The notes under the pieces were generated by a model. The model searched no databases. It was given only the letters and a program-made list of their open reading frames with translations, and was not told the origin of the DNA. A program made the translations under genes and the position numbers. This document shows, piece after piece, positions 8,128-49,014 of a DNA stretch of 64,000 nt. Source of the stretch: Novibacillus thermophilus (lineage in GTDB: Bacteria > Bacillota > Bacilli > Thermoactinomycetales > Novibacillaceae); assembly GCF_002005165.1 (NCBI RefSeq), contig NZ_CP019699.1, positions 3,534,001 to 3,598,000 on the forward strand, written 5' to 3'. Position 1 is the stretch's first letter. Each line of letters begins with the position of its first letter.

Positions 8128-8166
8128 ATGGACAAGCTACCTTATGTAGAAAGGTAGCTTGTCCAT
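8128..8166. repeat. Perfect 16-bp inverted repeat between the XRE and SPFH genes
   Basis: ATGGACAAGCTACCTT is followed by a 7-base loop and its exact complement. It lies about 50 bases past the stop of the XRE gene and about 100 bases before the SPFH gene, both on the minus strand. There is no strong T-run after it (TTGCTAG on the minus strand), so it is either a weak terminator for the XRE gene or a regulatory hairpin or operator. Confidence 0.7.
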
Positions 8167-8211
8167 GTAAACGGTGCAAAAGTTCACAAACGTAAACACG
8201 GCGGTAAAGTA

Positions 8212-8625: not shown

Positions 8626-8796
8626 GTGATCACCTCCCCACCTAACAGCTTACCCCAATCCCGAAAAATGCGAAACAAACCTATTGTTACACGTGTCAAC
8701 TAACGGTTTACAAACACGTTTTGGCATTTGGCAGCCAGTGTGTACAGTATGTTTGCAATGCTGGCTAGAGAAGATAATGCTTGCGTTCTAATAGTC

Positions 8797-8901
8797 TCAT
8801 TTGCTGCCACCCTCCTCGTAAAGAAACACTTCCTCCACCGTCGTGTTGAATGCTCGCGCAATTCGGATGGCGAGCGGCAGTAACAGGTTCTCATCACTGT
8901 T
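8797..8901 (-). pseudogene. 3' remnant of a second XRE-family regulator
   Basis: The last 34 codons of a frame on the minus strand read LAIRIARAFNTTVEEVF and then LYEEGGSK before a TGA. This is the typical C-terminus of the roughly 68-residue YvaO-like XRE regulators (helix 5 plus the acidic end). The helix-turn-helix N-terminus is missing: upstream, the DNA is already the end of the YcdB-like gene, in another frame, with an 8-base overlap. I infer a deletion that joined the two genes. Nothing clear follows between 8626 and 8796. Confidence 0.7.
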
Positions 8902-10365: not shown

Positions 10366-10373
10366 CTTTTCCC

Positions 10374-11333: not shown

Positions 11334-11599
11334 CGTCCCACTCTCCCGTTAAAAAATGTTCCATTCGCATTATAACCCGTCTCGCGAACTAAGCAAAAGG
11401 CCGGCTGCACAAGCCTTTCGACCGTCCCCTTGAAGTTGCGAAAAGATCCTCTTGGAAGATTCGTGAAACCTTGGAGATGAAGGCTCCCTCTCACCGCGAC
11501 AGTCATCCGTCTAAACAACGTATAGAACGGCGTGATCTCTCCCATACTATGTGGAAAAGCTTGCTAGTCGTCTGACTGCTTTCGAAAGGTTCGATTCCC

Positions 11600-13681
11600 A
11601 TGGGAGACGAGATGCAAAAGCCGAATGCCAGACCATCCCCCGGCTGGACGCCACTCACGGAAACGAAGTGGTTTCAGAGGAGCCGGCTGTTTTTCAGGTG
11701 GACGTTTTACGGGCTCGCAGGCTGTGCAGCTTCTGTACTGCTGGGCTTCTTAGTGTTGAAATCGCAGCCGCTGCCGGAGCCCGTACAACCTCTCACCACG
11801 CACATCTACAGCGACGACGGCCGTTTGATCGACGAACTGCACAGCGGTGAAAAGCGAGAATACGTGCCGTTGGAAAACATTCCGCCCGCTCTCATTCAGG
11901 CGACGATCGCCGTTGAAGACCGCTTTTTTTACGACCACTTCGGCCTGTCACCCCGGGGCATTCTGCGGGCAGCGTGGACGGATTTAAAGGAAATGGCCCT
12001 CGTAGAAGGAGCCAGTACGATCACCCAGCAGCTGGCGCGCAATTTGTACTTGAGCCATGACCGGACGTGGGCGCGCAAACTGAAAGAAGCGAAGTACGCG
12101 CTCCAACTGGAAATTCACTACGACAAAGATACCCTTTTGGAAATGTACTTAAATGAAGTTTACTTCGGGCACCAAGCTTACGGCGTGGGGCAGGCGGCGA
12201 AGATGTTTTTCGGAAAAAAACCAGAAGACCTGACCGTTGCCGAGTGCGCCCTCCTCGCGGGCATCCCGAAGGGAGCGGGAACGTACTCCCCTTACATACA
12301 CCCCGACAACGCCAAGGAGCGACAGCTCGTCGTACTGAAGGCAATGGAAAGGGAAGGTTATTTAACACGCGATGAAGTGAACGAAATCGCACGCCAACCG
12401 CTGTCGTACAAACCGCCGCAGACGACGGAAACGCAAGCCCCGTATTTTCGCGACTACATTAAGTCTTTGGCCGTCCACCGTTACGGACTGAATCAAGACC
12501 AAATCGAAAACGGCGGCCTCCACATCTACACGACCCTCGACCTGGACTTGCAACAACAAGCGGAACGAGCGATACAGCAACACATTGACACCGATTCGGA
12601 ATTGCAAGCTGCGCTCATCGCCGTTGACTCCAAAACAGGGGCCATTAAAGCGATGGTGGGCGGAACGGATTACGAGAAGACCCAGTACAACCGCACGCTG
12701 GCCAAACGGCAGCCCGGCTCGGCGTTTAAACCTTTTTTGTACTTGTCCGCGCTGGAAGACGGGTTTACACCGGCCACGATGATGAAGAGCGAGCCGACGA
12801 CGTTTACATACGGCGACGATGAAGTCTACAAACCGCAAAACTACCACGGCCAGTACGCCTATAGGCCGATTACGATGCGGGAAGCCCTCGTGCGGTCCGA
12901 CAACGTGTACGCCGTGAAGACACACTTCAAACTCGGTTTGCAGCCGTTAGTGGAAACGGCTGAACAGCTCGGCATCAAAGAAAACCTTTCACCCCACCCT
13001 TCCCTCGCCCTCGGCTCCATCCCCGTCTCCCCCCTGGAGATGACTGAAGCGTACACGACCATCGCCCGGCAAGGGGAGCACGTCGGGTTGACGGCGATTA
13101 AACGCATTGAGGACAGCAGGGGGAACGTACTGGCAGAGGCGGATATAACCTCCGAGCGCGTCGCCTCGCCCGCCTATACGTTTGTCCTCACCCACATGAT
13201 GCAAGGGGTGTTTGACGACGAGGGGGGCACGGGGAACATCGTGCGCCAACTCGTAAAGCGCCCGGTCGCGGGCAAAACCGGTACGACCGACTGGGACAGC
13301 TGGATGATCGGTTTCGACACGGACCTCGTGACGACCGTCTGGGTCGGTTACGACCAGAACGAGAAACTTTCTTACACCGATGCGCGCGCTGCGAAGTGGG
13401 TGTGGGGCTCGTTCATGCAACGCGTGACCCGGGGAAAAGCGAACCGGGTTTTTGAAGTGCCGGAAGGTGTCACCCCCGCTTACATCGATCCGGCCAGCGG
13501 ACGCCTGGCCACCGAAAATTGTCCAAATTACTACTTGGAGTACTTCGTCACGGGAACACAACCGACTGAAACGTGTGACGTCCACGGAGGAAGCCGACCG
13601 GCAAAACCGGTCCCCGTGGAAAGGAAGGAAGTCCCGGAACGCTCCTGGTTCGACCGCTTAAAGGATTGGTGGCAGCATTAA
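11600..13681 (+). CDS. pbpG: Class A penicillin-binding protein (PBP2d type)
   Basis: Bifunctional peptidoglycan glycosyltransferase and transpeptidase, 693 residues, close to B. subtilis PbpG. One N-terminal helix (about residues 33-55) anchors it. The glycosyltransferase domain has the catalytic Glu in AVEDRFFYDHFG and the EGASTITQQLARN motif. The transpeptidase domain has the active Ser in QPGSAFKPF (about residue 374), the SDN motif (VRSDNVYAVK) and KTG (AGKTGTTDW). The next gene but one is ywhD, its neighbour in B. subtilis too, where pbpG acts in sporulation. An ATG at 11612 has a better-spaced GGGAG site and is a possible start. The stop overlaps a convergent small gene. Confidence 0.93.
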   Translation: MGDEMQKPNARPSPGWTPLTETKWFQRSRLFFRWTFYGLAGCAASVLLGFLVLKSQPLPEPVQPLTTHIYSDDGRLIDELHSGEKREYVPLENIPPALIQATIAVEDRFFYDHFGLSPRGILRAAWTDLKEMALVEGASTITQQLARNLYLSHDRTWARKLKEAKYALQLEIHYDKDTLLEMYLNEVYFGHQAYGVGQAAKMFFGKKPEDLTVAECALLAGIPKGAGTYSPYIHPDNAKERQLVVLKAMEREGYLTRDEVNEIARQPLSYKPPQTTETQAPYFRDYIKSLAVHRYGLNQDQIENGGLHIYTTLDLDLQQQAERAIQQHIDTDSELQAALIAVDSKTGAIKAMVGGTDYEKTQYNRTLAKRQPGSAFKPFLYLSALEDGFTPATMMKSEPTTFTYGDDEVYKPQNYHGQYAYRPITMREALVRSDNVYAVKTHFKLGLQPLVETAEQLGIKENLSPHPSLALGSIPVSPLEMTEAYTTIARQGEHVGLTAIKRIEDSRGNVLAEADITSERVASPAYTFVLTHMMQGVFDDEGGTGNIVRQLVKRPVAGKTGTTDWDSWMIGFDTDLVTTVWVGYDQNEKLSYTDARAAKWVWGSFMQRVTRGKANRVFEVPEGVTPAYIDPASGRLATENCPNYYLEYFVTGTQPTETCDVHGGSRPAKPVPVERKEVPERSWFDRLKDWWQH

Positions 13682-13896
13682 CAGTCATCGCTGCCGCCGA
13701 TGTTCCCCGAACCGTCGGCCCACACCTCATCGTTGTACAGCGTAATCAGGCCGGCCTCGTTCAATTCGCTGAGCACTTCGAACAAACTGTCCCGCTTGTG
13801 CGAGGGTAAGCTGCGTACAAAGGCGTTAATCTCTTCAGGCGGGCAGTTGCTCCGAAAGTGAACGCCGCCGTGACGGGCAAAGTGTTCGTGTTGCAC
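13678..13896 (-). CDS. Small conserved-looking protein of unknown function
   Basis: I do not recognise this 72-residue protein. The N-terminus is His/Cys-bearing (VQHEHFARHGGVHFRSNCP), followed by EEINAFVRSLP and a helical stretch (LFEVLSELNEAGLITLYND). A GAGG motif eight bases before GTG 13896 sets the start; a GTG three codons earlier is less well placed. It converges on pbpG and overlaps its last four bases. The His/Cys pattern could bind a metal, but only one Cys is in the N-terminal block, so this is weak. Confidence 0.6.
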   Translation of the reverse strand: MQHEHFARHGGVHFRSNCPPEEINAFVRSLPSHKRDSLFEVLSELNEAGLITLYNDEVWADGSGNIGGSDDC

Positions 13897-13969
13897 AGGA
13901 ATCACCTCAATCTCATATTGGATTCATTTGTACTGTACCCAACCCTCTAGCGGTTATGAATGCAGACAA

Positions 13970-14005
13970 CCCAGAGGGCAGGTGCTGATGCACCTGCCCT
14001 CTGGG
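13970..14005. repeat. Perfect 15-bp stem-loop downstream of ywhD
   Basis: CCCAGAGGGCAGGTG is followed by a six-base loop and its exact complement. The stem is GC-rich. On the minus strand it comes about 90 bases after the ywhD stop but is followed by TTGTCTG rather than a T-run. It may stop ywhD transcription or shield the mRNA end; a classical intrinsic terminator is not supported. Confidence 0.7.
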
Positions 14006-14091
14006 CGTCCTAGTATATGTGGTTATACCATTCAATTTTACCTAGGGCCGTATCACGCGACAAGCGGTTTGTTTCCTTTTTCACAAAGCGT

Positions 14092-14610
14092 TCACGTTTC
14101 ACTTTCCAATGCCGCTTTTGTCTCTTCGGGCGTATTGTTCCACATCTCCTGGCTGTGGTCGATTAACAACTGTTTAAGCGCCCTTTTCGCCCGGTTGTCT
14201 AAAAACTTTATTTTTACTTTGCGCTTCATAGCGGCGTCCATCTGGTTCACGTGTTCGGCCATGTTTTTAAACCCGCGGCGCGCTTTCCGGTCGATCTGTA
14301 CCGTGCAGTCGCCCAATCCAGCGTAAAACGGTCCGTTCGGTCCGCGGTCGACGGCCACCCACACGATGTAGTACGTTTTTGGGTTCGGCAGTTCCGCCTC
14401 CATTTGGCTCGGGTCATCGATAAACTTAATGCCCCGCTCTGCTTTGCTCTTTCCGTGTATAGCGCCCAGGTCGATCGTCGCTTCGTCGCCATCTATCAGT
14501 ACGGCGGAAATGTTGTTCAAATTTAACGTTCCGGTCACGTAACCGCCGTGTGTCGTCGAATCGGCACCGAGAATTTGAAATCCACCGCCTAAATCTTTCT
14601 TCCTCGGCAT
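14092..14610 (-). CDS. ywhD: YwhD family protein
   Basis: A 172-residue protein with the length and overall sequence of B. subtilis YwhD, whose function is not established. It starts MPRKKDLGGGFQILGADSTT and includes YYIVWVAVDRGPNGPFYAG. It is cytoplasmic, with a basic C-terminal third (MKRKVKIKFLDNRAKRAL). Its place next to pbpG matches B. subtilis gene order, which supports the call. An AAGGAGGC site lies before the ATG. Confidence 0.88.
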   Translation of the reverse strand: MPRKKDLGGGFQILGADSTTHGGYVTGTLNLNNISAVLIDGDEATIDLGAIHGKSKAERGIKFIDDPSQMEAELPNPKTYYIVWVAVDRGPNGPFYAGLGDCTVQIDRKARRGFKNMAEHVNQMDAAMKRKVKIKFLDNRAKRALKQLLIDHSQEMWNNTPEETKAALESET

Positions 14611-14727
14611 TGCCTTTGCCTCCTTAAGTCAGCCTGAAGTAATGACACTACGATCATTTTACCCCCTTCGTCGTCCACATGCAAAAGAATGTACGACGGT
14701 TTAACGCCACCCCTTGCATATCGATAA

Positions 14728-14772
14728 AAAAACGAATATTATTAGCTGTGTTGCTGTTATTTATTCGTTTTT
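14728..14772 (+). promoter_or_regulatory. Likely PurR operator (paired PurBox)
   Basis: Two inverted copies of AAAAACGAATA flank a spacer; the central CGAA (14733-14736) and TTCG (14764-14767) are 27 bases apart. B. subtilis PurR binds two inverted PurBoxes built around CGAA, with 16-17 bases between 14-base boxes, which gives 26-27 bases between the two cores. The match in core, AT-rich flanks, spacing and target gene (a purine permease) is good. No purine riboswitch is visible in this leader. Confidence 0.68.
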
Positions 14773-14793
14773 ATGTCGTAGGAGGACGGTTCT

Positions 14794-16098
14794 ATGGAGA
14801 AATTCTTTCAGTTTCATCAACATAATACGAATCTCCGAACTGAAACCCTTGCCGGAGCGACGACCTTTTTGACGATGGTGTACATCGTCGTCGTCAATCC
14901 TGCCATCCTGTCGGAAACAGGGATGGACTTCGGCGCCGTTTTTGTGGCGACGGTGTTAGCCGCCTCGCTCAGCACGCTCATCATGGGCGTGTTCGCCAAC
15001 TATCCTATCGCCATCGCGCCGGGAATGGGGCTGAACGCTTATTTCGCCTACAGTGTTGTGGGACAAAACGGTGTCGGATGGGAAACGGCGATGGGGGCGG
15101 TACTCGTCGCGGGACTGTTGTTCTTGCTGCTCACCCTTACGACGTTGCGCGAAAGTTTGATTAAGGCGATTCCCACCAGTCTCAAAAACGGCATAACGGC
15201 CGGGATCGGACTGTTTATCGCGTTTATCGGTTTGAAATCAGCCGGTATCATCGTCGACGACGAGGTCAACCTCGTCGGATTGGGCGACTTGCACGCTCCA
15301 GTGACTATCCTCAGTTTGGCCGGGTTGCTCTTCACCCTGGTACTCATGACGTTGCGCGTACCGGGAGCGCTCTTTTTCGGCATGGTGTGCACGGGGGTCG
15401 TCGGTTGGCTATCGGGAATGCTCCACATCGAGGGACCGTGGGTGGCAGCACCTCCGAGCCTCGCCCCAACGTTCGGTGAAGCCGTCGTTGCGCTTCCTGA
15501 CGTGTTCAGTCAAGGATTGTACGCCGTCATATTCGCCTTCCTGCTCGTGACGTTGTTCGACACAACAGGGACGATGATCGGTGTCGCCGAACAAGCGGGA
15601 CTCATGAAGAACGGTGTTTTCCCGCGGATGAAACCGGCACTGTTCGCCGACGCCCTCGGGATGACGACCGGGGCTGTCATGGGGACGACTCCAACGAGCG
15701 CCTACATTGAATCGTCTGCCGGTGTGGCAACCGGCGGACGCACCGGCTTTACGGCTGTAGTCGTCGGTGTCTTGCTCCTCGGGACACTGTTTTTCGCACC
15801 GGTCGTCAGTGCCATCGCCGCCCTTCCGGCCATTACTGCGCCGACACTGATCATCGTCGGCTGCTTTATGATGGGCGGTCTGGCCAAAGTGGAGTGGAAT
15901 GACTTTGACGAGGCGTTCCCCGCCTTTATCGTCATGTTGAGCATGCCCCTGACGTCGAGCATCGCCACCGGGATCGCCCTCGGTTTCATCACGTACCCGC
16001 TGTTGAAAATCGTCCGCGGCAATTTCCGCGACGTCCATCCGCTCCTGTACGTGTTCATGTTGTTGTTCACGTTACAGCTGGCGTTTCTACCAGAATAG
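14794..16098 (+). CDS. NCS2-family purine permease (guanine/hypoxanthine type, PbuG/AzgA-like)
   Basis: A 434-residue, about 12-helix permease importing purine bases with protons. AzgA-group features include FANYPIAIAPGMGLNAYFAY near the N-terminus, DTTGTMIGVAEQAG in the middle and GTTPTSAYIESSAGVATGGR, all conserved in PbuG/PbuO. A TAGGAGGAC site precedes the ATG. The upstream PurBox pair suggests PurR repression when purines are plentiful. PbuG and PbuO cannot be told apart here. Confidence 0.92.
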   Translation: MEKFFQFHQHNTNLRTETLAGATTFLTMVYIVVVNPAILSETGMDFGAVFVATVLAASLSTLIMGVFANYPIAIAPGMGLNAYFAYSVVGQNGVGWETAMGAVLVAGLLFLLLTLTTLRESLIKAIPTSLKNGITAGIGLFIAFIGLKSAGIIVDDEVNLVGLGDLHAPVTILSLAGLLFTLVLMTLRVPGALFFGMVCTGVVGWLSGMLHIEGPWVAAPPSLAPTFGEAVVALPDVFSQGLYAVIFAFLLVTLFDTTGTMIGVAEQAGLMKNGVFPRMKPALFADALGMTTGAVMGTTPTSAYIESSAGVATGGRTGFTAVVVGVLLLGTLFFAPVVSAIAALPAITAPTLIIVGCFMMGGLAKVEWNDFDEAFPAFIVMLSMPLTSSIATGIALGFITYPLLKIVRGNFRDVHPLLYVFMLLFTLQLAFLPE

Positions 16099-16103
16099 CG
16101 GGC

Positions 16104-17543
16104 TCACAACAGCGGGGAGAACAGGCGGGCGCTTGATTCCTTCAGTTTTTGCCGCAGGGGCCGGCCGTACACGTCCCCGAGAGTGACGCGGCGGCTGTCC
16201 TTGAGGTCTTGCTGAAAATCCTCCTCTAACCGCTTCACGATCCCCTCATCATATATGAGGGCGTTCACCTCAAAGTTGTAATAAAAACTGCGGATGTCCA
16301 TATTGGCAGTTCCCAGCGAGGCGACGACCCCATCCACGATCAAAATTTTGGCGTGGATAAACCCCTTTTCGTACAAATAGACGTTCACACCGGCTTCCAG
16401 CAGTTCTTGCACGTACGACATCGTAGCCCAGAACACGATCTTGTGATCAGGGCGGGAAGGAAGAATCAGTTTGACGTCCACACCACTTAAAGCCGCTGTC
16501 TTGATTGCCATCAGCATGCTGTCGTCAGGGATGAAGTACGGCGATGTGATGTGTACTGACTGGGTCGCGGACGTGACAGCGGTAAAATACGCTTGCATGA
16601 TCGCCTCCCATTCGGAGTCCGGTCCGCTGGCGGCAATTTGTACAAATTGTTTTTCACGCACATTGTGCGCCGGAAAGTAGATTTCCTCCTGCAGCCGGTA
16701 GTGGGACTCCCCCTTCACAAAATCCCAATCCATCAAAAAGATCGCCTGTAACAAGGCCACTGCGTCTCCCCGCACCTCCAGATGGGTATCCCGCCAAAAA
16801 CCCATCCGCGGGTCTTTCCCCAAGTATTCATCCCCGATGTTGAGGCCGCCCATAAAGGCGACCTTTCCGTCAACGACGACAATTTTTCGGTGATTGCGGT
16901 AGTTCAGTTTACTTGTAATGACCGGAAACGCAACAGGTAAAAACGGATAAATTTCCACACCGGCCTCTCTCAACTCGTCGATGTAGGAGCGGCGCAAGTC
17001 CATGCTGCCCACTCCGTCGTAGATGATCCGCACTTCTACACCGGCACGGGCCTTTTCAATCAAAACGCGCTGAATGTCCCGCCCAATTTGGTCGTCGCGC
17101 CAGATGTAGTACTGCATGTGGATGTGGTGCGTCGCTTCGTTCAACGCCTGAATGATAGCGCGAAACGTCTCCACACCGTTCGTCAAAATGTGAATCCGGT
17201 TGTGCACAGTAAACGGCGACCGTGAATTGCGCAGCACGAGATTTACCAGGCGGCGCCGGTTGACATCCTCCGCTAAGATGGGTTCCGATTCCCGGACTCC
17301 CAACTGCTTCTCCGCGACTTGCTGCAGCCCTCCGAAGTCAGCCAGCTCCTTCCGGCGGAACCGCTTCTTCTTGCGGATATTTTGTCCAAACACGAGGTAA
17401 AAGAAAAAGCCGACGATGGGAAGGAAAGTCAAGACAATGAGCCAAGCCAGCGTCTTGGACGGATTGCGGTTCTCCAACACAATGACCACAGCGATAAAAC
17501 CGAAAAATATAAACGCGATACCCGAAGCGAAGATCCCCACCAA
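16104..17543 (-). CDS. cls: Cardiolipin synthase
   Basis: A 479-residue phospholipase-D-superfamily enzyme that joins two phosphatidylglycerols to make cardiolipin and glycerol at the membrane. Two N-terminal helices are followed by two HKD motifs: HRKIVVVDGKVAFMGGLN, and HAKILIVDGVVASLGTANMD. The start is a TTG (17543) or the adjacent GTG, with a GAGGCGG site upstream. It lies 30 bases after the HAD phosphatase stop, so the two may be co-transcribed. Its stop is only five bases from the convergent permease stop. Confidence 0.93.
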   Translation of the reverse strand: MVGIFASGIAFIFFGFIAVVIVLENRNPSKTLAWLIVLTFLPIVGFFFYLVFGQNIRKKKRFRRKELADFGGLQQVAEKQLGVRESEPILAEDVNRRRLVNLVLRNSRSPFTVHNRIHILTNGVETFRAIIQALNEATHHIHMQYYIWRDDQIGRDIQRVLIEKARAGVEVRIIYDGVGSMDLRRSYIDELREAGVEIYPFLPVAFPVITSKLNYRNHRKIVVVDGKVAFMGGLNIGDEYLGKDPRMGFWRDTHLEVRGDAVALLQAIFLMDWDFVKGESHYRLQEEIYFPAHNVREKQFVQIAASGPDSEWEAIMQAYFTAVTSATQSVHITSPYFIPDDSMLMAIKTAALSGVDVKLILPSRPDHKIVFWATMSYVQELLEAGVNVYLYEKGFIHAKILIVDGVVASLGTANMDIRSFYYNFEVNALIYDEGIVKRLEEDFQQDLKDSRRVTLGDVYGRPLRQKLKESSARLFSPLL

Positions 17544-17573
17544 TCCACAGCATTCCGCCTCACATTCTGCGAC

Positions 17574-18317
17574 TTATCGTGTACCTAGCACCCATCGGTG
17601 TATAGCCGTGGCCACACCGTCTTCCTCATTCGTCACGGTCACCCAGTCGGCCGCTTCTCTGACCCGTTCCTGGGCGTTGCCCATCGCCACTCCGATGCCG
17701 GCAGACCGGATCATGGCCACGTCGTTCAAACTGTCCCCAACTGCGAGAACGTCGTCCATGGAGAAGTTTAACTGGCGGCACACCGTTTCCAGTGCAGCCG
17801 CTTTGCTGACCCCTTTAGCATTCACCTCGATATTCGTCGGGGTCGAGTTGCTCACCTCAAGCTCGCCGGTTTCCACAAGCTTCTTCCAAATGGTGTTGCG
17901 GACGTCATCCTTTTCAGTATCGAAGCCGAACTTTAGCCATTTGTGGTCGTGGACACTGCCCGGGATGGCGCCTCCATCCCAAACCCGCTCAGCCGTCGCT
18001 CCCCAGACGCGAGTCCTGTACTGTTCCCCCATGCGGTACATCCACTCCACCAACTCCGAAGACAACGCGCGCCTGTGCCACAACTTCCCTGACGCATCCC
18101 ACACTTCCGCCCCGTTACTCGTCACCAGATAGGACGTCAAACGAAGTGAACGGGCGTACTCCCGTGTGCTGGCTATAAACCGTCCGGTGCTCAGTACAAC
18201 GTGAACCCCTTTTTGTTGTGCCAGGTGAATAGCTTCCCGGTTAGCCCGCGAGACCTCCAAGTCTCTGTTCAGCAACGTGCCGTCCATATCCAATGCAATC
18301 AGTTTGATGGACTTCAT
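17574..18317 (-). CDS. Cof-type HAD-superfamily phosphatase
   Basis: A 247-residue cytoplasmic hydrolase. HAD motif I (LDMDGTLLNRD) is at the N-terminus, motif II (VVLSTGR) follows, and motifs III/IV are in KGVSKAAAL and VGDSLNDVAMI with a type IIB cap between. These enzymes dephosphorylate sugar phosphates, nucleotides or flavin/PLP cofactors; the substrate is not predictable. A GGAGAC site lies before the ATG. It lies directly upstream of cls. Confidence 0.9.
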   Translation of the reverse strand: MKSIKLIALDMDGTLLNRDLEVSRANREAIHLAQQKGVHVVLSTGRFIASTREYARSLRLTSYLVTSNGAEVWDASGKLWHRRALSSELVEWMYRMGEQYRTRVWGATAERVWDGGAIPGSVHDHKWLKFGFDTEKDDVRNTIWKKLVETGELEVSNSTPTNIEVNAKGVSKAAALETVCRQLNFSMDDVLAVGDSLNDVAMIRSAGIGVAMGNAQERVREAADWVTVTNEEDGVATAIHRWVLGTR

Positions 18318-39413: not shown

Positions 39414-40193
39414 TTACAATACAGCGTGCTCTTCCTCTCTTATATCGGTCATGAACATGTGACCAGGGGCGTGGGTAATCATGAGGTCCGGCTTGCTTGC
39501 CATGGCAACTGCCTGTGGTGTAACCCCACATGCCCAAAACACCGGGACTTCGCCTTCGTATACCGTGACCGGATCTCCGAAATCAGGCTGGGTCAAATCG
39601 CGAATGCCAATCTCCTCTGGATGGCCGATGTGTACCGGCGCCCCGTGAACAGACGGAAATCTCGACGTGATCTGAACGGCGCGGATTACATCTCGGGATT
39701 TCATCGGCCTCATGCTGACCACCATCGGTCCCTTGAACACCCCTGCCGGATGACAGGGAATATGGGTTCGGTACATGGAAACGTTGCAGCCCTCGTCAAT
39801 GTGCCGAATCGGGATTCCGCTTTGGAGCAAAGCTTTTTCAAACGTAAAACTGCAGCCGAGGAGAAAGGAAACGAAATCGTCTGACCAGTAGCCCGATATG
39901 TCGGTCACTTCATCTTCCAAAACGCCTTTGCGGTAAATGCGGTATTTCGGAAGATCTGTTCGCAAGTCAGCTTCCGGAGCCGTTTGCCGCGGAACAGGGG
40001 ACCCCGTATCTGTCACTTCTAACAACGGGCACGGCTTCGGGTTGCGCACGCAAAACAGCAAAAAGTCATAAGCGTATCGTTTCGGCAAAATCACCAGGTT
40101 CGCCTGGGTGTAGCCTGGTGCTAACCCAGTGGTCGGTCGGCACCATTCCCCCTGGCGAACAGCCTTGCGAACGGTTTCAACGTCTTGATTCAC
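39414..40193 (-). CDS. ycsI: Putative hydro-lyase, YcsI/DUF1445 family
   Basis: A 259-residue protein of the YcsI family (D-glutamate cyclase-related in eukaryotic homologues; bacterial role not settled). It has TTGLAPGYTQANLVILP at the start, DFVSFLLGCSFTFE, and TPQAVAMASKPDLMITHAPGHMF at the end. In B. subtilis ycsI lies in the pxp (ycsF-kip) operon, and here too it is last in the same cluster, suggesting a link to 5-oxoproline or D-glutamate chemistry. GTG 40193 has GGAGGG eight bases before it. Confidence 0.88.
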   Translation of the reverse strand: MNQDVETVRKAVRQGEWCRPTTGLAPGYTQANLVILPKRYAYDFLLFCVRNPKPCPLLEVTDTGSPVPRQTAPEADLRTDLPKYRIYRKGVLEDEVTDISGYWSDDFVSFLLGCSFTFEKALLQSGIPIRHIDEGCNVSMYRTHIPCHPAGVFKGPMVVSMRPMKSRDVIRAVQITSRFPSVHGAPVHIGHPEEIGIRDLTQPDFGDPVTVYEGEVPVFWACGVTPQAVAMASKPDLMITHAPGHMFMTDIREEEHAVL

Positions 40194-40264
40194 ATCGATC
40201 CCTCCAGAGTTCAATTCAGACTAGAGGGCTCCCCGCTTAAAGGAGGCGCCCTTTTTAAAAAGTA

Positions 40265-41569
40265 CTACTTTACAGCACGCGTCGCGGCCTTCACTAACTC
40301 GACTGTCTGATCAACCGTCACAGTGCGGTGATGTTGGAACGCCGGGTCAATGTACACAGTACGGTCCTCAGGATAAAACTCTAGCGCCGCGATGTGCAGA
40401 TGGCCCCCTGGAACGTCGAAGGCACCGAGTCCAAGGCGGACACGGTTGGAACGGTATTGACTTTCGTTCGAGAGGTAGTTTCCGCCACCGCCGGATTGTG
40501 CCCTGGAGCCTGGTGTCGGTCCGTTTTCATGACAGCCGACCTCGTCAAAGGTAGGTGGCAACCATTCACACACTTGGTCATTGCGAAACACAGGCCAAGG
40601 CCCAGTCTGATCCTCCACCATCGCTTCGACGGGAAGTGCCGTCTCAATGAATTCAGGAAGAGGATCTGGCATAAGCCAGTGGGAGACGGTCGGGATGACA
40701 CTGGAGCGGGATTCCATTTCATTGTCGACACCGGTATGCCACCTCCCGGCGTAACCTTCAATCGCCATTTGGCGAGCGCCTCCCTGACTAATCGTCATCA
40801 TTAAGTTAATCCGTTGCGTTGTACGCTTCTTTAAGTACGGCCCAAACGTATCTTCCACTATCCCTTGCTCAAAGTCTCGCCAGCGAACAGGGAAGTTCAC
40901 AGCTTGAATGAAAGCCGGCCCCTTGTCTGTGTTAACCTTTAACCCGTCTAACTGGAGGGCGGAAGCCCCAGACGGGTTGCTTCGCCGAAAATCTCCTTCT
41001 AGTCTATAGGGGTCAAAACCGCTGACGAGGACCCGTTTAACTCCCTTCCCTTTGGGGAAGTCGATAGAGGAGATACCCCGAGAGGTGTACTCTAAACGCT
41101 TTAACAAATCTTGCCGCTCCGTCCCCTTTAACTGAAAATCGGGGGCCCACTATCGTAGGGCTTTGGTCATGTGCAGCCGTGCCCAATAAAGGGGACGGTC
41201 GTCGTAACGGTCCAGCTTTCCTAAATCCGGACGCTTTCCTTGAGCGCGGTGGACCGCTGTCTTCCACAACTGTGTCCCGTGCCTCTCTACGATTTTTTGT
41301 GCGTGTTTCACGTTTTGTGCAGCACACAGATCGCGTTCGAACTTTTCGACGAATTGATCAAAGCGGCTATCTTTTAAAATTCGCTGCGGGATGGGCGCAC
41401 CGTCTGTCATTCGCTGTTCCTCTTGGGTAACGGGAAGACTGGGATCAAAACAGACGGCCTCACTTTTGGCAAGGGTGATGGACGGCAAAGGGGCGAGTGA
41501 TGACAAAACTAGTAAACTCGCAGTCACGACAATCGCAAGGCGATGCACACCACGGGTTCGACTACCCAT
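40265..41569 (-). pseudogene. Secreted pyroglutamyl-peptidase-like protein with an internal amber stop
   Basis: One frame of 434 codons is cut by a TAG at 41150-41152. The upstream piece starts at ATG 41569 (AAAGGAGAGG site) with a signal peptide (AIVVTASLLVLSSLAPLP) and ends HMTKALR; the sequence then continues WAPDFQLKGTERQDLL in the same frame, so the stop is probably a CAG to TAG change. The downstream piece has VLVSGFDPYRLEG, RRSNPSGASAL and a late Cys/His-bearing region (EVGCHENG, GGHLHIAALEF), as in the C15 pyrrolidone-carboxylate peptidase fold. It would release pyroglutamate outside the cell, feeding the neighbouring 5-oxoprolinase genes. Confidence 0.83.
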
Positions 41570-41691
41570 CGTTTGACCTCTCCTTTAAACTTTTTCTCTA
41601 TATCCTGAATTGCACCAAGCTTTCGATTTCCGCGACTGTTTCCCACATCCTTTCGCCATGCTTTTGAATAGACTTGATGCAAGGGATACCT

Positions 41692-43035
41692 TTATAGAAA
41701 TCCGTTCTTTTCTAAAAATTTTGTATTAAAGTTCCCACTCACAAAATCCTCATGACGTAACACTTTTTCATGAAAAGGGAGTGTCGTCTCGACCCCCTCA
41801 ACGACAAATTCACTTAGCGCGCGCTTCATTCTCGATATGGCCTCTTCTCGTGTCGGCCCCCAGGCAATAAGCTTTGCAATCAATGAGTCATAGTGGGGCG
41901 AAATGACACATCCCGGATAAGCTGCGCTGTCCACGCGGATACCGGGACCTCCCGGAGGCAAATAAAGGTTCAATTTTCCGGGAGAGGGCACAAAATTTCT
42001 GTCAACGGCTTCGGCATTGATCCGGCACTCCATCGCCCAGCCGTTCATCGAGATGTCACTCTGGGTGAAACTAAGTGTCTTTCCGGATGCCACCGAAATC
42101 TGTTCCTTCACGAGATCAATACCGGTAATACACTCCGTCACGGGGTGTTCCACCTGTATGCGGGTGTTCATCTCCATGAAGTAAACGCGTCCAGCGCCAT
42201 CGTAAATGAATTCGACCGTTCCCGCTCCGACATAACGGACTGCTTTTGCCGCCCGGACGGCCAGCTCTCCTATTTCCCTTCTCTTTTCTTCTGTCACGGC
42301 TGACGAAGGGGCTTCCTCGATCAATTTTTGCAGCCGCCGTTGAATGGTGCAGTCCCGTTCGCCGAGGTGGACCACATTGCCGTACTGGTCCGCCATAATC
42401 TGTACTTCTACGTGACGAAAATCCTCAACGTACTTCTCCAGGTAAACCCCGGGATTGCCGAATGACGCAGCGGCTTCCTGCCGCGTAATGCGGAAACCGT
42501 TTTCCAGCTCAGCTTTATTGCGGGCAAGCCGTATTCCCTTTCCTCCCCCGCCCGCAGCGGCTTTAATTAAGACAGGAAAGCCGATGTTCTCCGCCACTTC
42601 CGCCGCTTCGTTCCAGTCCCGAACGAGGCCATCTGAACCCGGTACGACAGGAATCCCCGCATCCGCCATCGTCTTACGGGCGACGTCCTTCGCTCCCATC
42701 TTGTTCATAGCGTCTGCATCCGGCCCGATAAACGCAACATTGCAATCGGCGCACAGCTCAGCAAAGTCTGCGTTCTCCGCTAAAAAACCGTAACCCGGAT
42801 GAACCGCGTCACACCCTGTCAACGTCGCTATACTCACGATGTTGATAACATTTAAATAGCTGCCCATGGGAGACGCCGGCCCGATACAATAGGCCTCGTC
42901 GGCGAGTTGAACGTGAAGGGACTCCCTGTCTGCCTCGGAAAAAACGGCAACCGTACGGATCCCCATTTCCCGACAGGTGCGAATAATTCTGACGGCAATT
43001 TCCCCGCGATTGGCGACTAACACTTTGCGAAACAT
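41692..43035 (-). CDS. accC: Biotin carboxylase (AccC-type) of the pxp cluster
   Basis: A 447-residue ATP-grasp biotin carboxylase. It has ANRGEIAVRIIRTCREMG, HPGYGFLAENADF, the glycine-rich KAAAGGGGKGIRLA, and EMNTRIQVEHPVTE. It lies 13 bases after accB in a cluster with pxpC, pxpA and pxpB. The same grouping is known from staphylococci. Because it is not with the carboxyltransferase genes accA/accD, it may serve the PxpC-type subunit rather than fatty-acid synthesis; a second accBC copy elsewhere would be expected. Confidence 0.92.
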   Translation of the reverse strand: MFRKVLVANRGEIAVRIIRTCREMGIRTVAVFSEADRESLHVQLADEAYCIGPASPMGSYLNVINIVSIATLTGCDAVHPGYGFLAENADFAELCADCNVAFIGPDADAMNKMGAKDVARKTMADAGIPVVPGSDGLVRDWNEAAEVAENIGFPVLIKAAAGGGGKGIRLARNKAELENGFRITRQEAAASFGNPGVYLEKYVEDFRHVEVQIMADQYGNVVHLGERDCTIQRRLQKLIEEAPSSAVTEEKRREIGELAVRAAKAVRYVGAGTVEFIYDGAGRVYFMEMNTRIQVEHPVTECITGIDLVKEQISVASGKTLSFTQSDISMNGWAMECRINAEAVDRNFVPSPGKLNLYLPPGGPGIRVDSAAYPGCVISPHYDSLIAKLIAWGPTREEAISRMKRALSEFVVEGVETTLPFHEKVLRHEDFVSGNFNTKFLEKNGFL

Positions 43036-43048
43036 CGTCTCTTCCCTT

Positions 43049-43537
43049 CTACACGGGCTTTACTAAAAATAACGGCTGTCCGTATTCGACGAGTTGCCCG
43101 TTCTCTGCCAAAATGTCCACAATCTCTCCGTTCACTTCCGCTTCAATTTCATTCATTAACTTCATCGCCTCCACAATACACACAACCGTCGATTGCTGGA
43201 CGACATCGCCTTTTTGGACGTACGGTTCTGCGTCTGGAGCAGGTGCTCGGTAAAAGGTCCCCACCATGGGACTGACGATTTCATGGACATCCTCGTCAAG
43301 TTTTTCCTCTTTCGGAGGTTCACTTATGGCGGAGGACGCTTCACCGGACACCTCCTGAGATGTAACCCCTTCCTCCGTCACGTCATCTCCTGGCGCGGGC
43401 GGCTGAGGGGAGTTAGCGCTTTTTTCTTTTCTTTTTCTAATCGATAGTTTCTGCCCCGAACTCTCGTAATCAAAATGGGTAATGCTCGTTTTATCGATGC
43501 TTCCAATGAGCTCTTGAATATCTTTCAAGCTCAACAC
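43049..43537 (-). CDS. accB: Biotin carboxyl carrier protein (AccB-type) of the pxp cluster
   Basis: A 162-residue carrier. The N-terminal dimer-type segment ([17 protein letters not shown]) is followed by a Pro/Ala/Glu-rich linker and the biotinyl domain with the acceptor Lys in [13 protein letters not shown] near residue 123. GTG 43537 is preceded by GGAGGC. It lies between pxpC and accC. Confidence 0.92.
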
Positions 43538-43555
43538 TTATCTCATGCCTCCTAA

Positions 43556-44536
43556 CTAACGTTCATACACGCCTGCCGCAATGCTGAGCTGACGCAATAG
43601 CGTTTCCCGCTCGATCCATAACCGATGGGCTTCTTCGACGCTAACCGCCTCGAACGTAAGTTTTGAACCGGGAGGCAGCTGCGCCACATAAGGCAAATCA
43701 ACGGAAGTGACCGTCGCCACCCTCGAATAGCCGCCCGTCGTCTGGCGATCAGCCATGAGCACAATCGGTTCCCCGTTGGCCGGAACTTGAACGGTGCCAG
43801 GCATAATGGCGTCGGAAATTATGTCGGCACCTGACGTGTGCTTGAGCTTTGGGCCCGACAAGCGATAGCCCATGCGATCTGATTGGGTCGTCACTCGGTA
43901 CGCTTCGGACAAAAACGTTTCGATACTTTCGAGATCGAACAATTCATGATCAGGCCCGAGTACGACCCTTATGCTTTTAGAAGGGCGGTAGTCCGGTACG
44001 TTGGAAGGCGGTATCCCCCTCCTTCCGACTTGCTTCACTCTGTCCGCCATGTCTTCAGCCTTAAGCACATCCCCTTTTTTGACATACCGTCCTTTTACGC
44101 CCCCCAACCTCGCTTTGGCGTACGTCGACTTACTGCCCATCACATCCGGGACACGGATGCCCCCCGACACGGTCAAGTAGGCGTACACCCCGCTCCTGGG
44201 CTGTCCGAACGTTAATGTCTGACCCTTTTTCACCTGGACGGACTTCCATACCGGAATTGGGACCCCATCTACAGTGGGAGAGAGATCAGCACCGCAAACG
44301 GCGATCGTCGTATCGCGAAGGATTCCCAGTTCCGGCCCCATTAACGTGATTTCCAATCCAGCGGCGCCGCGGCGATTCCCGACGAGGAGATTCCCCACTT
44401 GCAGTGCGTAAGCGTCCATTGCGCCGGAGACGACCACACCGTACTGTTGGTATCCCGTGCGGCCGAGGTCTTGAACAGAGGTCGCCAAACCCGGTTTGAT
44501 CACTTCCAGTACGCCGCGTCCCATTTTACGTTCCAA
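43556..44536 (-). CDS. pxpC: 5-oxoprolinase subunit PxpC (KipA / biotin-dependent carboxyltransferase family)
   Basis: A 326-residue protein with the family start [20 protein letters not shown], then [17 protein letters not shown] and [20 protein letters not shown] followed by QTTGGYSR. PxpA, PxpB and PxpC together hydrolyse 5-oxoproline to glutamate with ATP. KipA in B. subtilis also counters the sporulation inhibitor KipI. The start is TTG 44536 or ATG 44524; both overlap or abut the pxpA stop. Confidence 0.92.
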
Positions 44537-45290
44537 CCCGCTTGATAAAAATGCCGTGATCCGTCAGTGCTTGTCGCAGCTTTTTCACGAATTGTAAAGC
44601 TTGCGGTCCATCGCCGTGAACGCACACGGTATCTGCTTTAATCTCAACGTCCGAACCGTCCACCGCTTCCACCTTCCCTTCTTTGACCATGCGGACCACC
44701 TGTTGGACAGCCTGCTCTGCATCGTGAATCATAGCATTTGGCTCAGTGCGGGAAGTTAACGACCCATCAGGTTGATAGGTCCGGTCGGCGAACACTTCCT
44801 GCGCTACCGTCAACCCGACCTTTTCCCCTGCTTTGACGAGCTCGCCACCTGCCAAGCCAAACAAAATCAGCCGGGGGTTGATCGCATAAACGGCTTCAGC
44901 GATCGCCTGCGCGAGGGTTTTATCTTTTGCCGCCATGTTAAAAAGGGCCCCGTGCGGTTTGACGTGACTAAGTTCCGCCTGGTACAGATGGGCAAACGCC
45001 TGTAAAGCCCCCACTTGGTATACAACCATGTTGTACACATCTTGGGGGTCTACCTGCATCGGACGGCGCCCAAACCCGATTAAGTCCTGTAACCCCGGGT
45101 GGGCTCCCAGCCCCACATTCAGTTCGACTGCCTTCTGAACCGTCCGCCTCATGACATTGTGATCGCCGGCGTGATACCCGCAGGCAATGTTGGCAGACGT
45201 AATGTGGCGGAGAATGAGCTCGTCCTGTCCGATCGTGTACGCGCCAAAACCTTCGCCCAAATCGCTGTTTAGATCAACCTGCACAACCAT
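44526..45290 (-). CDS. pxpA: 5-oxoprolinase subunit PxpA (LamB/YcsF family)
   Basis: A 254-residue protein starting [17 protein letters not shown], the LamB/YcsF hallmark, with [14 protein letters not shown] and [13 protein letters not shown]. It is the catalytic-type alpha/beta barrel part of the ATP-dependent 5-oxoprolinase. ATG 45290 follows GGGAGGAGG; the frame is open further upstream but inside pxpB. It overlaps the pxpB end by 17 bases, indicating coupled translation. Confidence 0.93.
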
Positions 45291-46032
45291 CTTCCTCCTC
45301 CCGATACGGTTCGACGTGGGGGTGAAACGTTCCATTGCGGACCGTTTCCAGAATGTCTTTGTACTCTTCCTCCGATACAGGGTGAAACCTGACGTAGTTT
45401 CCGGCCTTCAGCAATATCGGCGGGTCCCGATCCGGGTCATACAATTTCAACGGGGTCCGGCCGATGATCTGCCACCCACCCGGTGTCTCCATCGAGTAAA
45501 TCCCCGTCTGTTCACCGGCAATCCCGACAGACCCCGGCGCGATTTTAGGTCTCGGAACAGTTAACCGCGGCGTGGCAATTTTCTTGGACATCCCGCCCAA
45601 ATAAGGGAAGCCGGGCGTAAACCCCATCATATAGATTAAATAATTCGTTCCGGAGTGGATCTTCACCACTTCTTCTTCTGTTAATCCGTTATGGTCGGCC
45701 ACTTGTGCCAAATCTGGCCCTTTGTCCCCGCCGTAGCACGTCGGAATGTGCACGACGTCCGCCTTTGGCAAGTTGATGCGCGTCATCTTCTCCTTGAGAT
45801 CCAAGACAAATTGCTCAAGCTCTGCGTAAGAGATCACGTAGGGATCGTAAACGATCGATAACGCTGTGTAAGTGGGGATCCACTCCAGTATACCGTGAAG
45901 TTTTTCCTGCTCGAGTAAAACTGCAAAGCTGCGAATCCGTTGGTTCGTTTTCGGCGAAATGGTCTCTCCAAACTGTATTCGCAGCCCACTGTCACCAAAT
46001 GCGCTCACTTTGAACAACGCCAATCCCACCAT
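45274..46032 (-). CDS. pxpB: 5-oxoprolinase subunit PxpB (KipI family)
   Basis: A 252-residue protein with [16 protein letters not shown] at the start and [19 protein letters not shown]-type and [20 protein letters not shown] motifs (read as neighbours) typical of KipI/PxpB. In B. subtilis KipI inhibits the sporulation kinase KinA; as PxpB it works with PxpA and PxpC. It lies six bases after the broken NRAMP gene. Confidence 0.93.
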
Positions 46033-46038
46033 ACATCG

Positions 46039-46760
46039 TTAAAATAACTGAGGTATCGAACTTATGAGCGTGTCGACGCCGAGATAAGCGGTTAACGCGA
46101 CGACTACAGCGCCGAACACCGTCAACCACACCGGATGCCGGTAGCCTCCTACGATTTTTTTATTGTGGGCCGCAAGCAGCACAGACCCCAAAGTTAAGGG
46201 CAAAATCAATCCGTTTACAGCCCCCGCTAAAATTAAGAGGGTGACCGGCTGTCCAACTAAAACAAAGACGACTGTGGAGAAAACGATGAACCCGATGATC
46301 CAATACTTGTAGTGCTGGTCGATCTTTCTGTGGAAAGACCGCAAGAAGGAGACGGACGTATAAGCGGCGCCGATCACGGACGTAATGCCGGCAGCCCACA
46401 GCACTAAACCAAAAATTTTGTAACCGACAACACCAGCAGCGTGTTGAAAAGCAGACGCAGGCGGATTGTCCGGATCGAGGCTAAATCCCGATGACACGAC
46501 ACCCAAGACGGCCAAAAACAGGATGATGCGCATGATCGACGCCACGATAATCCCGGATACGGACGAGCGCGTCACTTCTCTGACGTTCTCTTTTCCGGAC
46601 ACGCCGGCCTCCAGCAAGCGGTGTCCGCCGGAGAACGTAATGTAGCCGCCAACCGTCCCTCCCACAATGGTGACGATAGCGAAAAAGTCCAGCTCCAAAG
46701 GCGCTACGGTCCGTAAAGCCGCTTCGCCTACCGGCGGGCTGCTCGTGAACATGACGTAAA
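46039..46760 (-). pseudogene. NRAMP-family transporter (YcsG-like), 5' half deleted
   Basis: The last 240 codons match the C-terminal half of YcsG-type NRAMP transporters: TSSPPVGEAALRTVAPLEL, GGTVGGYITFSGGHRLLEAG, ITSVIGAAYTSVSFLRSF. Homology begins abruptly at YVMFTSSPPVG; the first roughly 160 residues, including the metal-site helix 1, are absent, and the DNA upstream belongs to a sodium-solute symporter in another frame. In B. subtilis ycsG sits in the pxp operon. The longer open frame to 47181 is the shadow of the symporter gene. Confidence 0.85.
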
Positions 46761-47342
46761 AGCAGCCAGCAGAGAACCGGCGATAATTAAACAAAAATTC
46801 AAAGCGTCTGTCCGTGCGACGGAAAACAGGCCGCCATACGTCGTATAGAGTAAAAACAAATACACGAGAAAAATGGCAACGGTGTACGGAATGTCCAACA
46901 AGAACGAGATGACGATACCAAACCCGCGAATTTGAATCACAATGTACAAAATGTACGTGATCACCAGAATGAGGCCGGTAAACATCTGCAGCTTGGCGCT
47001 GCCGTACCTCTTGTAAAAAAAATGGGGGATGGTCACGACATTGTACGACCGCAACCTCTTGGCCAACATAATAATGAACAAGGAACCCAAAAACCAGCAA
47101 ACGACACTGTACAAAATAGCAGAATAGCCGTACTCGTAAATGAGACCAGGGAGACCCAACATGGAGGCTGCGCTGAACCACGTAGCGCCAAACGTCGACA
47201 CACTTAAAAACAACCCGAGGGAACCGCTGACCGTATAGTAATCTCGCAACGTTTTTGAACGGTCAATGCCGTACTTTCCCAGCCACAGAATGAGCACGGT
47301 GTAGATTAAAAAGAAGACCATGTACAGCAGTGGATTAAACAT
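46728..47342 (-). pseudogene. Sodium:solute symporter (SSS family), 3' part deleted
   Basis: The first 195 or so residues are a good symporter N-terminus: GIDRSKTLRDYYTVSG, STFGATWFSAASMLG, TIPHFFYKRYG, with about six helices ending at CLIIAGSLLAAF. Then the frame runs a few codons into NRAMP DNA and stops. About 300 residues are missing. The junction is near 46760. A partner small gene lies upstream, as usual for this type. Confidence 0.85.
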
Positions 47343-47534: not shown

Positions 47535-47965
47535 CTACCGCATCGGGTAAGCCCCTTCCCAAACGACTCTGCGGTAATGGGCTTCGTCGGTATCCCCTTC
47601 CGTGTTAATCAAAATAACGGACGAACTTCGGTTTAACCCGAGTTTTTCTTTCACCTGTTCAAAACGGCGGTCCCTCGCCAGGCAGTACAGCAAACCGGCT
47701 GAAACCGCCCCGGACTCTCCGGATACGATGCGCTGGTCACTCTTCAGCGGATGACCTAAAATGCGCATCCCCCATGCCGCTCCCCTGTCATCACACGAAC
47801 TAAACCAAAGCGGTGCGCTTCATCTTTGACAAACACGCGTTGACATCCAAGGTATTGAGCTAAATGGGACAAAGAAATGAGCGGCGTCTTCACGTAATCT
47901 GGGTGTGTGCTCTGAAAACGGTGAATCTCCGCAACCGTACCCAGTGAGAAATCCGCCGTTACGTC
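47535..47965 (-). pseudogene. dpaL: Diaminopropionate ammonia-lyase remnant, middle deleted
   Basis: Two ends of a DpaL-type PLP enzyme remain in different frames. The N-terminal piece (about 47965-47801) reads TADFSLGTVAEIHRFQ, then YVKTPLISLSHLA and VFVKDEAHRFGL. The C-terminal piece (about 47801-47535) reads DDRGAAWGMRILGHPLKSD, IVSGESGAV, then INTEGDTDEAHYRRVVWEG, as in E. coli YgeX. DpaL is about 400 residues; roughly 250 internal residues, with the PLP lysine region following FGLN, are gone. The junction is near 47801. Confidence 0.83.
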
Positions 47966-49014
47966 ATGGATTCCTTCACTTTTTTTATCTGATTGAACTG
48001 CCACTTTATCAACGTCTGACCCCTCTGAGGCAAGGGACGCACCTCCCTGTTTGACCGACTCACCGTAAAACTGCACGACAGCATGGGCCATCTTGACCAC
48101 TTCACGGGCTAAACAGCTCGGTTCCACGACTTTCATGTTGTCTCCAAACCCTAATACGAACGCCTTCGCCTCTTCTTCCGTGTCGAAGCAAAGGGTGACA
48201 GGTATCCAACCGCTGTCCAAAGGATGGCCGACTGCACGAATTTTCGCGAACCAACCGGCGTATGGCAATTTTGGAAGAACGGAGGGCGCTGCTTCCACCT
48301 GTATTTCGTATTCCGGCAAATGATCTATAAACGCCTGAGTAGAAGACTCCCAGTACTGGGCCAGATCAAAGTCCGTCGGACGGACAAACCTCTCATTCGT
48401 CGACGCCGCCGACAGGATGCGCGACGCTCTGTACGTCCGCACTGTCTCATCGATTGATGCGACTAAATACCAAACACTCCCTTTCGCCACCAGTCCGAGG
48501 GGGTCCACTGTACGCTCCACCGTGTCACCGTCTGAACGCCGGTAGAGGATGTGCAATCTCTCTTCTTCCCAAATCGCCTGCTGCAGTGTTTCAAAGGCGG
48601 CAACCGTCTCCTCCGGCTTTCTCCACGCACGGGTGTCGACGTGTATGCGCTGCCAGACTTCTTTTGCACCGTGACGGTACGTGTCAGGGATGGCAGCGAG
48701 CAATTTGTTCCTGGCATCTTCTGCCGATCGCGTCAAACCTAAATCGTCCAGCAAGTGGGCGGGAGGCGACACGAACAACGCTTGAATCTCTTTCTCCTTG
48801 AACCCAGTCAAATTCGTCCGGTATTTTTCCATCAAGCGCCACCCTCCCCCACGCCACGGTCGGCCACAACGGGAATGCCAGCTCGACTGAGGGCCTCCAT
48901 ATCCCGATACACGGTTCTCTCCGACACTTCCAGCCGTTCCGCCAGCTGCTTGGCTGTCATTCTCCCGTGAGATTGCAGTAACAACAAGATGGATATCAAT
49001 CGGTCCGCTCTCAT
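47756..49014 (-). pseudogene. HTH-WYL regulator (YobV-like), frameshifted and fused to dpaL
   Basis: The HTH part starts at ATG 49014 (AAAGGAG site): [40 protein letters not shown]. It breaks at a run of five G near 48845; adding one G restores [19 protein letters not shown] and the WYL domain (ILYRRSDGDTVERTVDPLGL, WYLVASID, YRASRI). The frame does not stop after the WYL C-terminal region (REVVKMAHAVVQFYGES) but continues into the N-terminal piece of dpaL from about 47965. Such regulators often control a divergent gene; here that is the SDR at 49123. Confidence 0.82.

Follow-up and report, generated by a model that had tools for sequence, protein, structure and literature searches.

A fatty-acid-type biotin carboxylase and carrier gene pair in a 5-oxoprolinase operon of Novibacillus thermophilus, with a possible role in lactam ring opening

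The three-subunit 5-oxoprolinase PxpABC (ycsF, kipI, and kipA in Bacillus subtilis; ybgJKL in Escherichia coli) includes PxpBC, a member of the carboxyltransferase family that is described as biotin-independent. Here, we analyze a window of 64,000 nucleotides from the genome of Novibacillus thermophilus (contig NZ_CP019699.1, positions 3,534,001 to 3,598,000), in which the pxp genes are followed by genes for a biotin carboxyl carrier protein (BCCP; accB) and a biotin carboxylase (BC; accC). The locus resembles known PxpABC systems in its three subunits, a D-glutamate cyclase gene, an Nramp-type transporter remnant, and an arginine-type PxpB. It differs from them in having its own BC and BCCP, and in a PxpC that scores 292 bits against a cut-off of 500 in the equivalog model NF045499. 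With urea carboxylase (BC-carboxyltransferase-BCCP) and allophanate hydrolase it shares a BC, a BCCP, a CT_A_B/CT_C_D carboxyltransferase, and a hydrolase, and amide activation by carboxylation is a proposed parallel. Unlike that system, it has separate subunits, PxpA in place of allophanate hydrolase, and an arginine in place of the general-base lysine.

Clusters that we term type 2 (pxpB2-pxpC2-BCCP-BC-pxpA) also bring together a PxpBC-family carboxyltransferase, BCCP, BC, and PxpA. They differ from the window in a carrier of 80 to 92 amino acids, a BC of a separate clade, and lysine-type residues, and some have GabT/GabD-like or molybdenum-hydroxylase-like neighbors. A fungal system, lamA/lamB of Aspergillus nidulans, is connected to the locus by the relation of YcsF (PxpA) to LamB (PMC3412718); lamA and lamB are controlled together with gatA and gabA (PMC8016842). 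Caprolactamase (CapAB) likewise opens a lactam with ATP and bicarbonate, and a carboxylated lactim is one of three intermediates proposed for it; it belongs to an unrelated protein family and has no biotin. The caprolactamase paper also describes previous studies of oxoprolinase as reporting no requirement for bicarbonate (PMC8453981). Our literature search, whose coverage excluded most subscription journals, found no paper on a biotin-linked PxpABC. An article on Lactiplantibacillus pentosus lists a species-specific extra BC and BCCP as well as pxpB/pxpC, and discusses the two as distinct features (PMC12427679). The association is visible in database names, and is not described as a functional unit in the literature searched.

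Our best reading, advanced tentatively and at somewhat less than even confidence, is that this 5-oxoprolinase operon captured a duplicated fatty-acid-type accBC as its own BC and carrier; we infer the reaction that the pair would serve. A functional tie between pxp and accBC is supported by the recurrence of the linkage, by loci at which the carrier lacks an intact carboxylase, and by the chain list of a Protein Data Bank (PDB) entry, 9yx5.

On the minus strand of the window, the gene order is pxpB-pxpA-pxpC-accB-accC, then a peptidase-like remnant and a D-glutamate cyclase gene. The first-pass annotation had placed accB and accC inside the 5-oxoprolinase cluster, directly after pxpC, and this arrangement holds. 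PxpB (45274 to 46032; CT_C_D match, 6.9e-76) is KipI-like and has Arg156 at the position of the urea-carboxylase general base. PxpA (44526 to 45335; LamB_YcsF match, 7.1e-104) is the lactam hydrolase subunit, and PxpC (43556 to 44536; CT_A_B match, 1.4e-98) is KipA-like and of the biotin-dependent carboxyltransferase family. The three subunits are encoded together: the open reading frames (ORFs) of PxpB and PxpA, and those of PxpA and PxpC, overlap, followed by gaps of 18 bp between PxpC and AccB and 13 bp between AccB and AccC. The next ORF lies 122 bp beyond AccC. A promoter and terminator scan found no site between pxpC, accB, and accC. On the minus strand it marked a promoter-like site within pxpA (44620) and terminator-like sites within pxpC (43716) and accB (43204); its counts were below those of shuffled sequence for promoter-like sites (3 versus 5.6) and above them for terminator-like sites (17 versus 10.5).

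The AccB paralog (43049 to 43537) is a full-length fatty-acid-type BCCP (TIGR00531, 168.4 bits against a cut-off of 115.2) in which the biotinylation motif EAMKL is intact. The AccC paralog (41692 to 43035) is a fatty-acid-type BC (TIGR00514, 738.3 bits against 626.5) with all seven of the BC motifs sought; the motifs used for both proteins are those that we take to be characteristic. Both proteins look intact, and by score and motif both pass as components of a fatty-acid acetyl-CoA carboxylase. Among the Pxp proteins, PxpC falls below its equivalog model and exceeds the broader domain model TIGR00724 (339.8 versus 230.2 bits), while PxpB exceeds the equivalog model TIGR00370 (223.6 versus 145.55 bits). 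PxpA exceeds the subfamily models NF003814 (371.9 versus 226) and NF003816 (270.1 versus 213), and is under the cut-off in all three PxpA equivalog models (best, 372.6 versus 392). The urea-carboxylase model TIGR02712 gives partial matches and no full-length score for the operon, in which BC and BCCP partner genes are present as for a urea-carboxylase-type carboxyltransferase.

We searched the N. thermophilus genome (3.63 Mb, one contig) and found four matches to the C-terminal domain of BC. Two are accC genes, one at 2.75 Mb and the window's at 3.576 Mb; the others are a gene at 1.93 Mb and pyruvate carboxylase. The accBC at 2.75 Mb is flanked by spoIIIA and by asp23, nusB, and folD (names read from sequence), and this housekeeping context belongs to that copy and not to the window's. 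The possibility, raised in the first-pass annotation, that the window holds the sole accBC of the genome is therefore rejected. Only two PF01039 matches were found, in adjoining genes at 0.774 Mb that we read as accD and accA. A separate fatty-acid accBC elsewhere, with no spare PF01039 partner in the genome, supports the capture reading. The same accDA pair also favors a rival explanation that we consider somewhat unlikely, namely that the window's accBC is a second source of acetyl-CoA carboxylase parts. It would work together with the AccDA of the genome, and co-expression on substrates rich in glutamate or 5-oxoproline would be the sole reason for its place in the pxp operon. That AccB and AccC score as fatty-acid equivalogs is a further point in its favor.

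Phylogeny bears on both explanations. The window's AccC and AccB are 67% and 52% identical, respectively, to the genome's fatty-acid proteins. In a 42-row BC tree the window's AccC is sister to the genome's own fatty-acid AccC (support 99/95), and a second tree, of 31 rows, gives the same pairing (94/95), which agrees with the acetyl-CoA carboxylase explanation; the window's branch is about twice as long (0.51 versus 0.25). By these comparisons the window's accBC is a duplicate of fatty-acid type, and duplication within this lineage is tentatively favored. For more than one independent capture of such pairs, the evidence points both ways. In favor are the AccC trees and approximately unbiased (AU) tests, which reject a single clade both for the four AccB linked to pxp (P = 0.015; grouping named after the tree was viewed) and for the three AccC so linked (P = 3.9e-16; the G206 row includes the probable gene-conversion tract described below). 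Against it are a 15-row topology test, in which one clade of the window's AccC and the pxp-linked AccC of genome G171 (locus L097) is not rejected (P = 0.454), and the AccB tree. This tree contains no starred branch; it places L087, L090, and L097 together at 81/83, and a group at 80/97 joins the window to L020, to two rows from its order, and to a row from another family.

Two fatty-acid-like accC genes (PF02785, at least 140 bits) occur in 2 of the 42 genomes of the order, those being the window genome and G268. The G268 duplicates sit on contigs other than that of its PxpC, so that duplicates need not be tied to pxp, as the acetyl-CoA carboxylase explanation would have it. In G171, neither of two fatty-acid-like accC genes lies in the spoIIIA context; the second adjoins a PF01039 gene, and the AccB that accompanies it is degenerate. 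This AccB paralog (L249, 5311 to 5778), next to accC and the carboxyltransferase gene, has ETLKL in place of EAMKL at the biotin site.

PF02626 is present in 186 of 250 genomes of the class. We compared 157 distinct PxpC loci besides the window's, mostly with 6 to 7 kb on each side, after dropping the duplicate locus L233. The sample comprises the best-scoring PF02626 matches listed, together with G001, a genome of the same family, and a further seven named loci; lower-scoring PxpC lie outside it. A fatty-acid-type accB lies near pxpC in four of these neighborhoods (L087 of G206, L090 of G128, L097 of G171, and L065 of G132), and in the first three it is on the same strand as pxp. By our own arithmetic (12.8 kb of about 4 Mb), chance would give about 0.5 of 157 within about 6 kb, and fatty-acid-type accB is thus found near pxpC more often than by chance. 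Another 12 loci carry a short BCCP, nine with a BC and three without, and one has a urea-carboxylase-like ORF. At L247 of G132 (3993 to 17935), a complete pxpB-pxpC-pxpA-Nramp-hydrolyase cluster lies on the opposite strand between spoIIIAH and the fatty-acid accB. A pxp cluster inside the fatty-acid accBC locus fits the acetyl-CoA carboxylase explanation, with which the recurrence of accBC next to pxp is at odds.

The association extends to plasmids of other lineages. In 12 plasmid records, hand-picked and non-random from a ranking of 743, BC/BCCP genes lie beside pxp genes in eight. Plasmids of Sinorhizobium (two), Klebsiella, and Pantoea encode PxpA, a fused PxpB-PxpC, and after these a long BC protein; in the three records whose ends could be read, a carrier motif lies close to the end of this protein. 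Three records from Rhizobium leguminosarum have BC/BCCP beside pxp, and a Lactiplantibacillus plantarum plasmid has the order pxpB-pxpC-BCCP-BC-hydrolyase-pxpA-Nramp. The annotations of the Bradyrhizobium, Paenibacillus, Deinococcus, and Methylobacterium plasmids hold no BC/BCCP, with which an ORF search agrees for Bradyrhizobium and Paenibacillus. The BCs of the fused proteobacterial form make up one clade (100/100), apart from the window's BC, and neither they nor the BCs of L. plantarum and Rhizobium belong to the fatty-acid-type clade. On one R. leguminosarum plasmid (L264, 2866 to 3300), the interval between accC and pxpB holds a third acc-like gene, carrier-like and, by eye, without a biotinylation motif. 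The association of pxp with BC/BCCP is real and recurring, and it crosses phyla. The first-pass annotation, which had confined it to "this lineage", was in this respect too narrow; it was also too wide, given a same-family genome that lacks the pair near its pxp genes.

At some loci, the carrier is kept with no intact carboxylase next to it. In G128 (L090), the pxp-linked accB is full length and accC is cut to 80 amino acids by an internal deletion. Three short-carrier loci have a BCCP and no BC within the fetched stretch; one of the genomes concerned, G042, does have a BC related to that type, at a distance of about 80 kb. A carrier kept beside pxp without a carboxylase is odd if the genes only supply acetyl-CoA carboxylase, and is expected if PxpBC uses the carrier. 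The acetyl-CoA carboxylase explanation is hard to square with a kept accB and a deleted accC, or with the long BC beside proteobacterial PxpBC fusions. In G206, the pxp-linked accC (L087) and the fatty-acid accC (L248) match at 1.00 (rounded) in six consecutive 150-nucleotide windows and at 0.57 in the last, a match over most of the length that does favor that explanation. The two AccB are 50% identical, and taken with the carboxylase match this also counts for the carrier as the retained part. The roughly 900 nucleotides of near-perfect identity with a divergent end are likely a gene-conversion tract. The carrier would thus be the stable part of the pxp linkage, although decay of the locus would also explain the G128 case taken alone.

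PDB entry 9yx5 lists chains under the names "Allophanate hydrolase subunit 2", which match PxpC, and "Allophanate hydrolase subunit 1", which match PxpB. The same entry has the alpha3 subunit of a biotin-dependent acyl-CoA carboxylase and two chains named "Propionyl-CoA carboxylase beta chain" (PF01039). The alpha3 name fits mycobacterial AccA3, which has BC and BCCP domains (PMC11001197). A query with PxpA against the PDB found no 9yx5 chain. This composition, without a PxpA match, would also suit another explanation: PxpABC would be an ordinary ATP-dependent 5-oxoprolinase, and PxpBC with AccBC would carboxylate a different small substrate, or the carrier would regulate. We judge this unlikely. 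The 5-oxoprolinase residues kept by PxpB and PxpC, set out below, speak for it; against it, no gene for another substrate was recognized in the operon beyond the D-glutamate cyclase and the broken peptidase-like gene.

Several observations weigh against carboxybiotin use by the window's PxpBC, and the main evidence among them is Arg156. Lys1605 of Kluyveromyces urea amidolyase is the likely general base of its carboxyltransferase (PMC5770610). We mapped this residue by carrying a PDB alignment three residues back from the match of query 159 with chain 1608, and by a profile alignment to a bacterial urea carboxylase; its position corresponds to Arg156 in the window's PxpB, where the general-base lysine is lacking. 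Among 165 PxpB rows, 23 have lysine and 142 arginine in this column, and a BCCP or BC gene lies on the same strand within 3.5 kb in 21 of the 23 lysine rows versus 5 of the 142 arginine rows, the window included. No sequence mark of carboxybiotin use was found, in that no column of either protein clearly sets the five linked arginine-type rows of Bacilli apart from unlinked ones. Four columns of PxpB and four of PxpC do have one residue in at least four of the five linked rows and in 13 to 29% of the unlinked, which we treat as noise. The linkage is also rare, since 140 of the 157 PxpC neighborhoods have neither a BC nor a BCCP gene, and in G001, of the same family, pxpBAC has no accBC close to it. 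The support from entry 9yx5 is at the level of its chain lists. A biotin-free 5-oxoprolinase has reportedly been found in both E. coli and B. subtilis.

Four columns are more than 90% fixed to differing residues in the two types (PxpB 156, 175, and 187; PxpC 241), the lysine-type states being Lys, Phe, and Tyr in PxpB and Asp in PxpC. The window's proteins have the 5-oxoprolinase state in all four, and by sequence its PxpBC is an ordinary pair of 5-oxoprolinase subunits. At PxpB 175, the lysine-type Phe is also found in three fused proteobacterial rows. PxpB of PDB 3mml has arginine at the general-base position, and its score against the window's protein is almost the same as that of the 9yx5 chain. 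In eight further plasmid PxpB rows, one (Rhizobium, linked) has lysine and seven have arginine, five linked and two unlinked. The arginine does not exclude a biotin partner, because other arginine-type loci have BC/BCCP. Thus, where the first-pass annotation proposed that the complex uses carboxybiotin or has an additional carboxylation reaction, the functional tie is supported, and the residue at the general-base position counts against the chemistry.

What we observe at the locus are the genes, their state, and their recurrence; from these we infer docking, substrate, carboxylation, and CO2 release. AccC would charge the biotin of AccB with CO2 at the expense of ATP, and the AccB arm would dock onto the PxpB-PxpC carboxyltransferase. 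The ring amide of a lactam would then be carboxylated, the lactam being 5-oxoproline or 5-oxo-D-proline, the latter expected from the neighboring D-glutamate cyclase. PxpA would hydrolyze the activated ring, and the carbamate product would lose CO2 to give glutamate. Bicarbonate would thereby act catalytically, as in the treatment of urea by urea carboxylase and allophanate hydrolase. The bicarbonate-dependent ring opening by caprolactamase supports the capture reading by analogy. That PxpABC and AccBC together form a biotin-dependent 5-oxoprolinase, in which carboxybiotin and not only direct phosphorylation activates the lactam and bicarbonate is a catalytic co-substrate, is possible, and we hold it with considerable doubt.

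A second, lysine-type cluster lies at 1.93 Mb of the same genome (L019, 3824 to 15565; 1.926 to 1.938 Mb), and encodes a class-III aminotransferase, an aldehyde dehydrogenase, a lysine-type PxpB, PxpC, a short BCCP, BC, and PxpA. The genes for its PxpC, BC, and PxpA are frame-broken in this assembly, each lying across two reading frames. Its PxpB scores higher in the urea-carboxylase model (128 bits) than in the PxpB model (75 bits), both under the cut-off, and its BC fragment falls within the clade of such BCs (100/97). Across 15 lysine-type loci, this one included, a GabT-like gene is found in five and a GabD-like gene in four. By eye, molybdenum-hydroxylase, XdhC-like, or MobA-like neighbors occur in three of the five loci whose neighbors were inspected; these names, and that of a "sigma-54 regulator", are our presumptive assignments, made without a profile search. 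This type looks like a true biotin-dependent lactam enzyme, perhaps acting on 2-pyrrolidinone. The relation to LamB agrees with this lactam reading, as does the Aspergillus regulon for omega-amino acids. At L062 (Cytobacillus) and L063 (Neobacillus), lysine-type pxpBC was found with no PxpA, BC, or BCCP in the fetched stretch.

The pxp-acc operon of the window is flanked by broken genes. Upstream, at 46039 to 47342 (minus strand), the start of a sodium:solute symporter (PF00474 positions 1 to 165 of 406) continues, with a change of frame, as the last part of an Nramp-like transporter (PF01566, 96 to 354 of 357), as if a deletion had fused two transporter genes. At 47535 to 48835 (minus strand), a WYL-domain regulator ORF runs on into the start of a diaminopropionate ammonia-lyase (model 16 to 71 of 396); the end of this enzyme (325 to 396 of 396) is in a separate downstream ORF, and its middle part was not found. 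Downstream of accC, a secreted-looking protein with a weak pyroglutamyl-peptidase match is apparently split between reading frames (40265 to 41569, minus strand). Its probable first part (41150 to 41569) has, by eye, a signal-peptide-like start and no Pfam match, and its probable second part (40265 to 41107) matches Peptidase_C15 weakly (E = 0.027; 14.9 bits against a cut-off of 22.7). The D-glutamate cyclase, or putative hydro-lyase, was identified by profile match (39414 to 40214, minus strand). These broken neighbors, together with the deletion in the pxp-linked accC of G128, could mean that accBC merely landed in a decaying locus and that the linkage has no function. We consider this very unlikely: the transporter and the peptidase-like gene are incomplete, but the pxpA, pxpB, pxpC, accB, and accC ORFs are all of full length, and other lineages show the linkage as well.

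The recurrence of this gene arrangement suggests a biotin-assisted route of lactam ring opening. If the biotin-dependent mechanism holds, arginine-type PxpBC in several phyla could use carboxybiotin given any carrier, whether a dedicated one or that of the fatty-acid enzyme. A recurring pairing of PxpBC with a BC and carrier would explain the carboxyltransferase family name; it would also add lactam opening to the reactions of biotin enzymes, and tie the salvage of glutamate to biotin status and to bicarbonate. Annotation errors are possible too: where a pair named "acetyl-CoA carboxylase" adjoins pxp, its role may in some cases lie outside fatty-acid synthesis.

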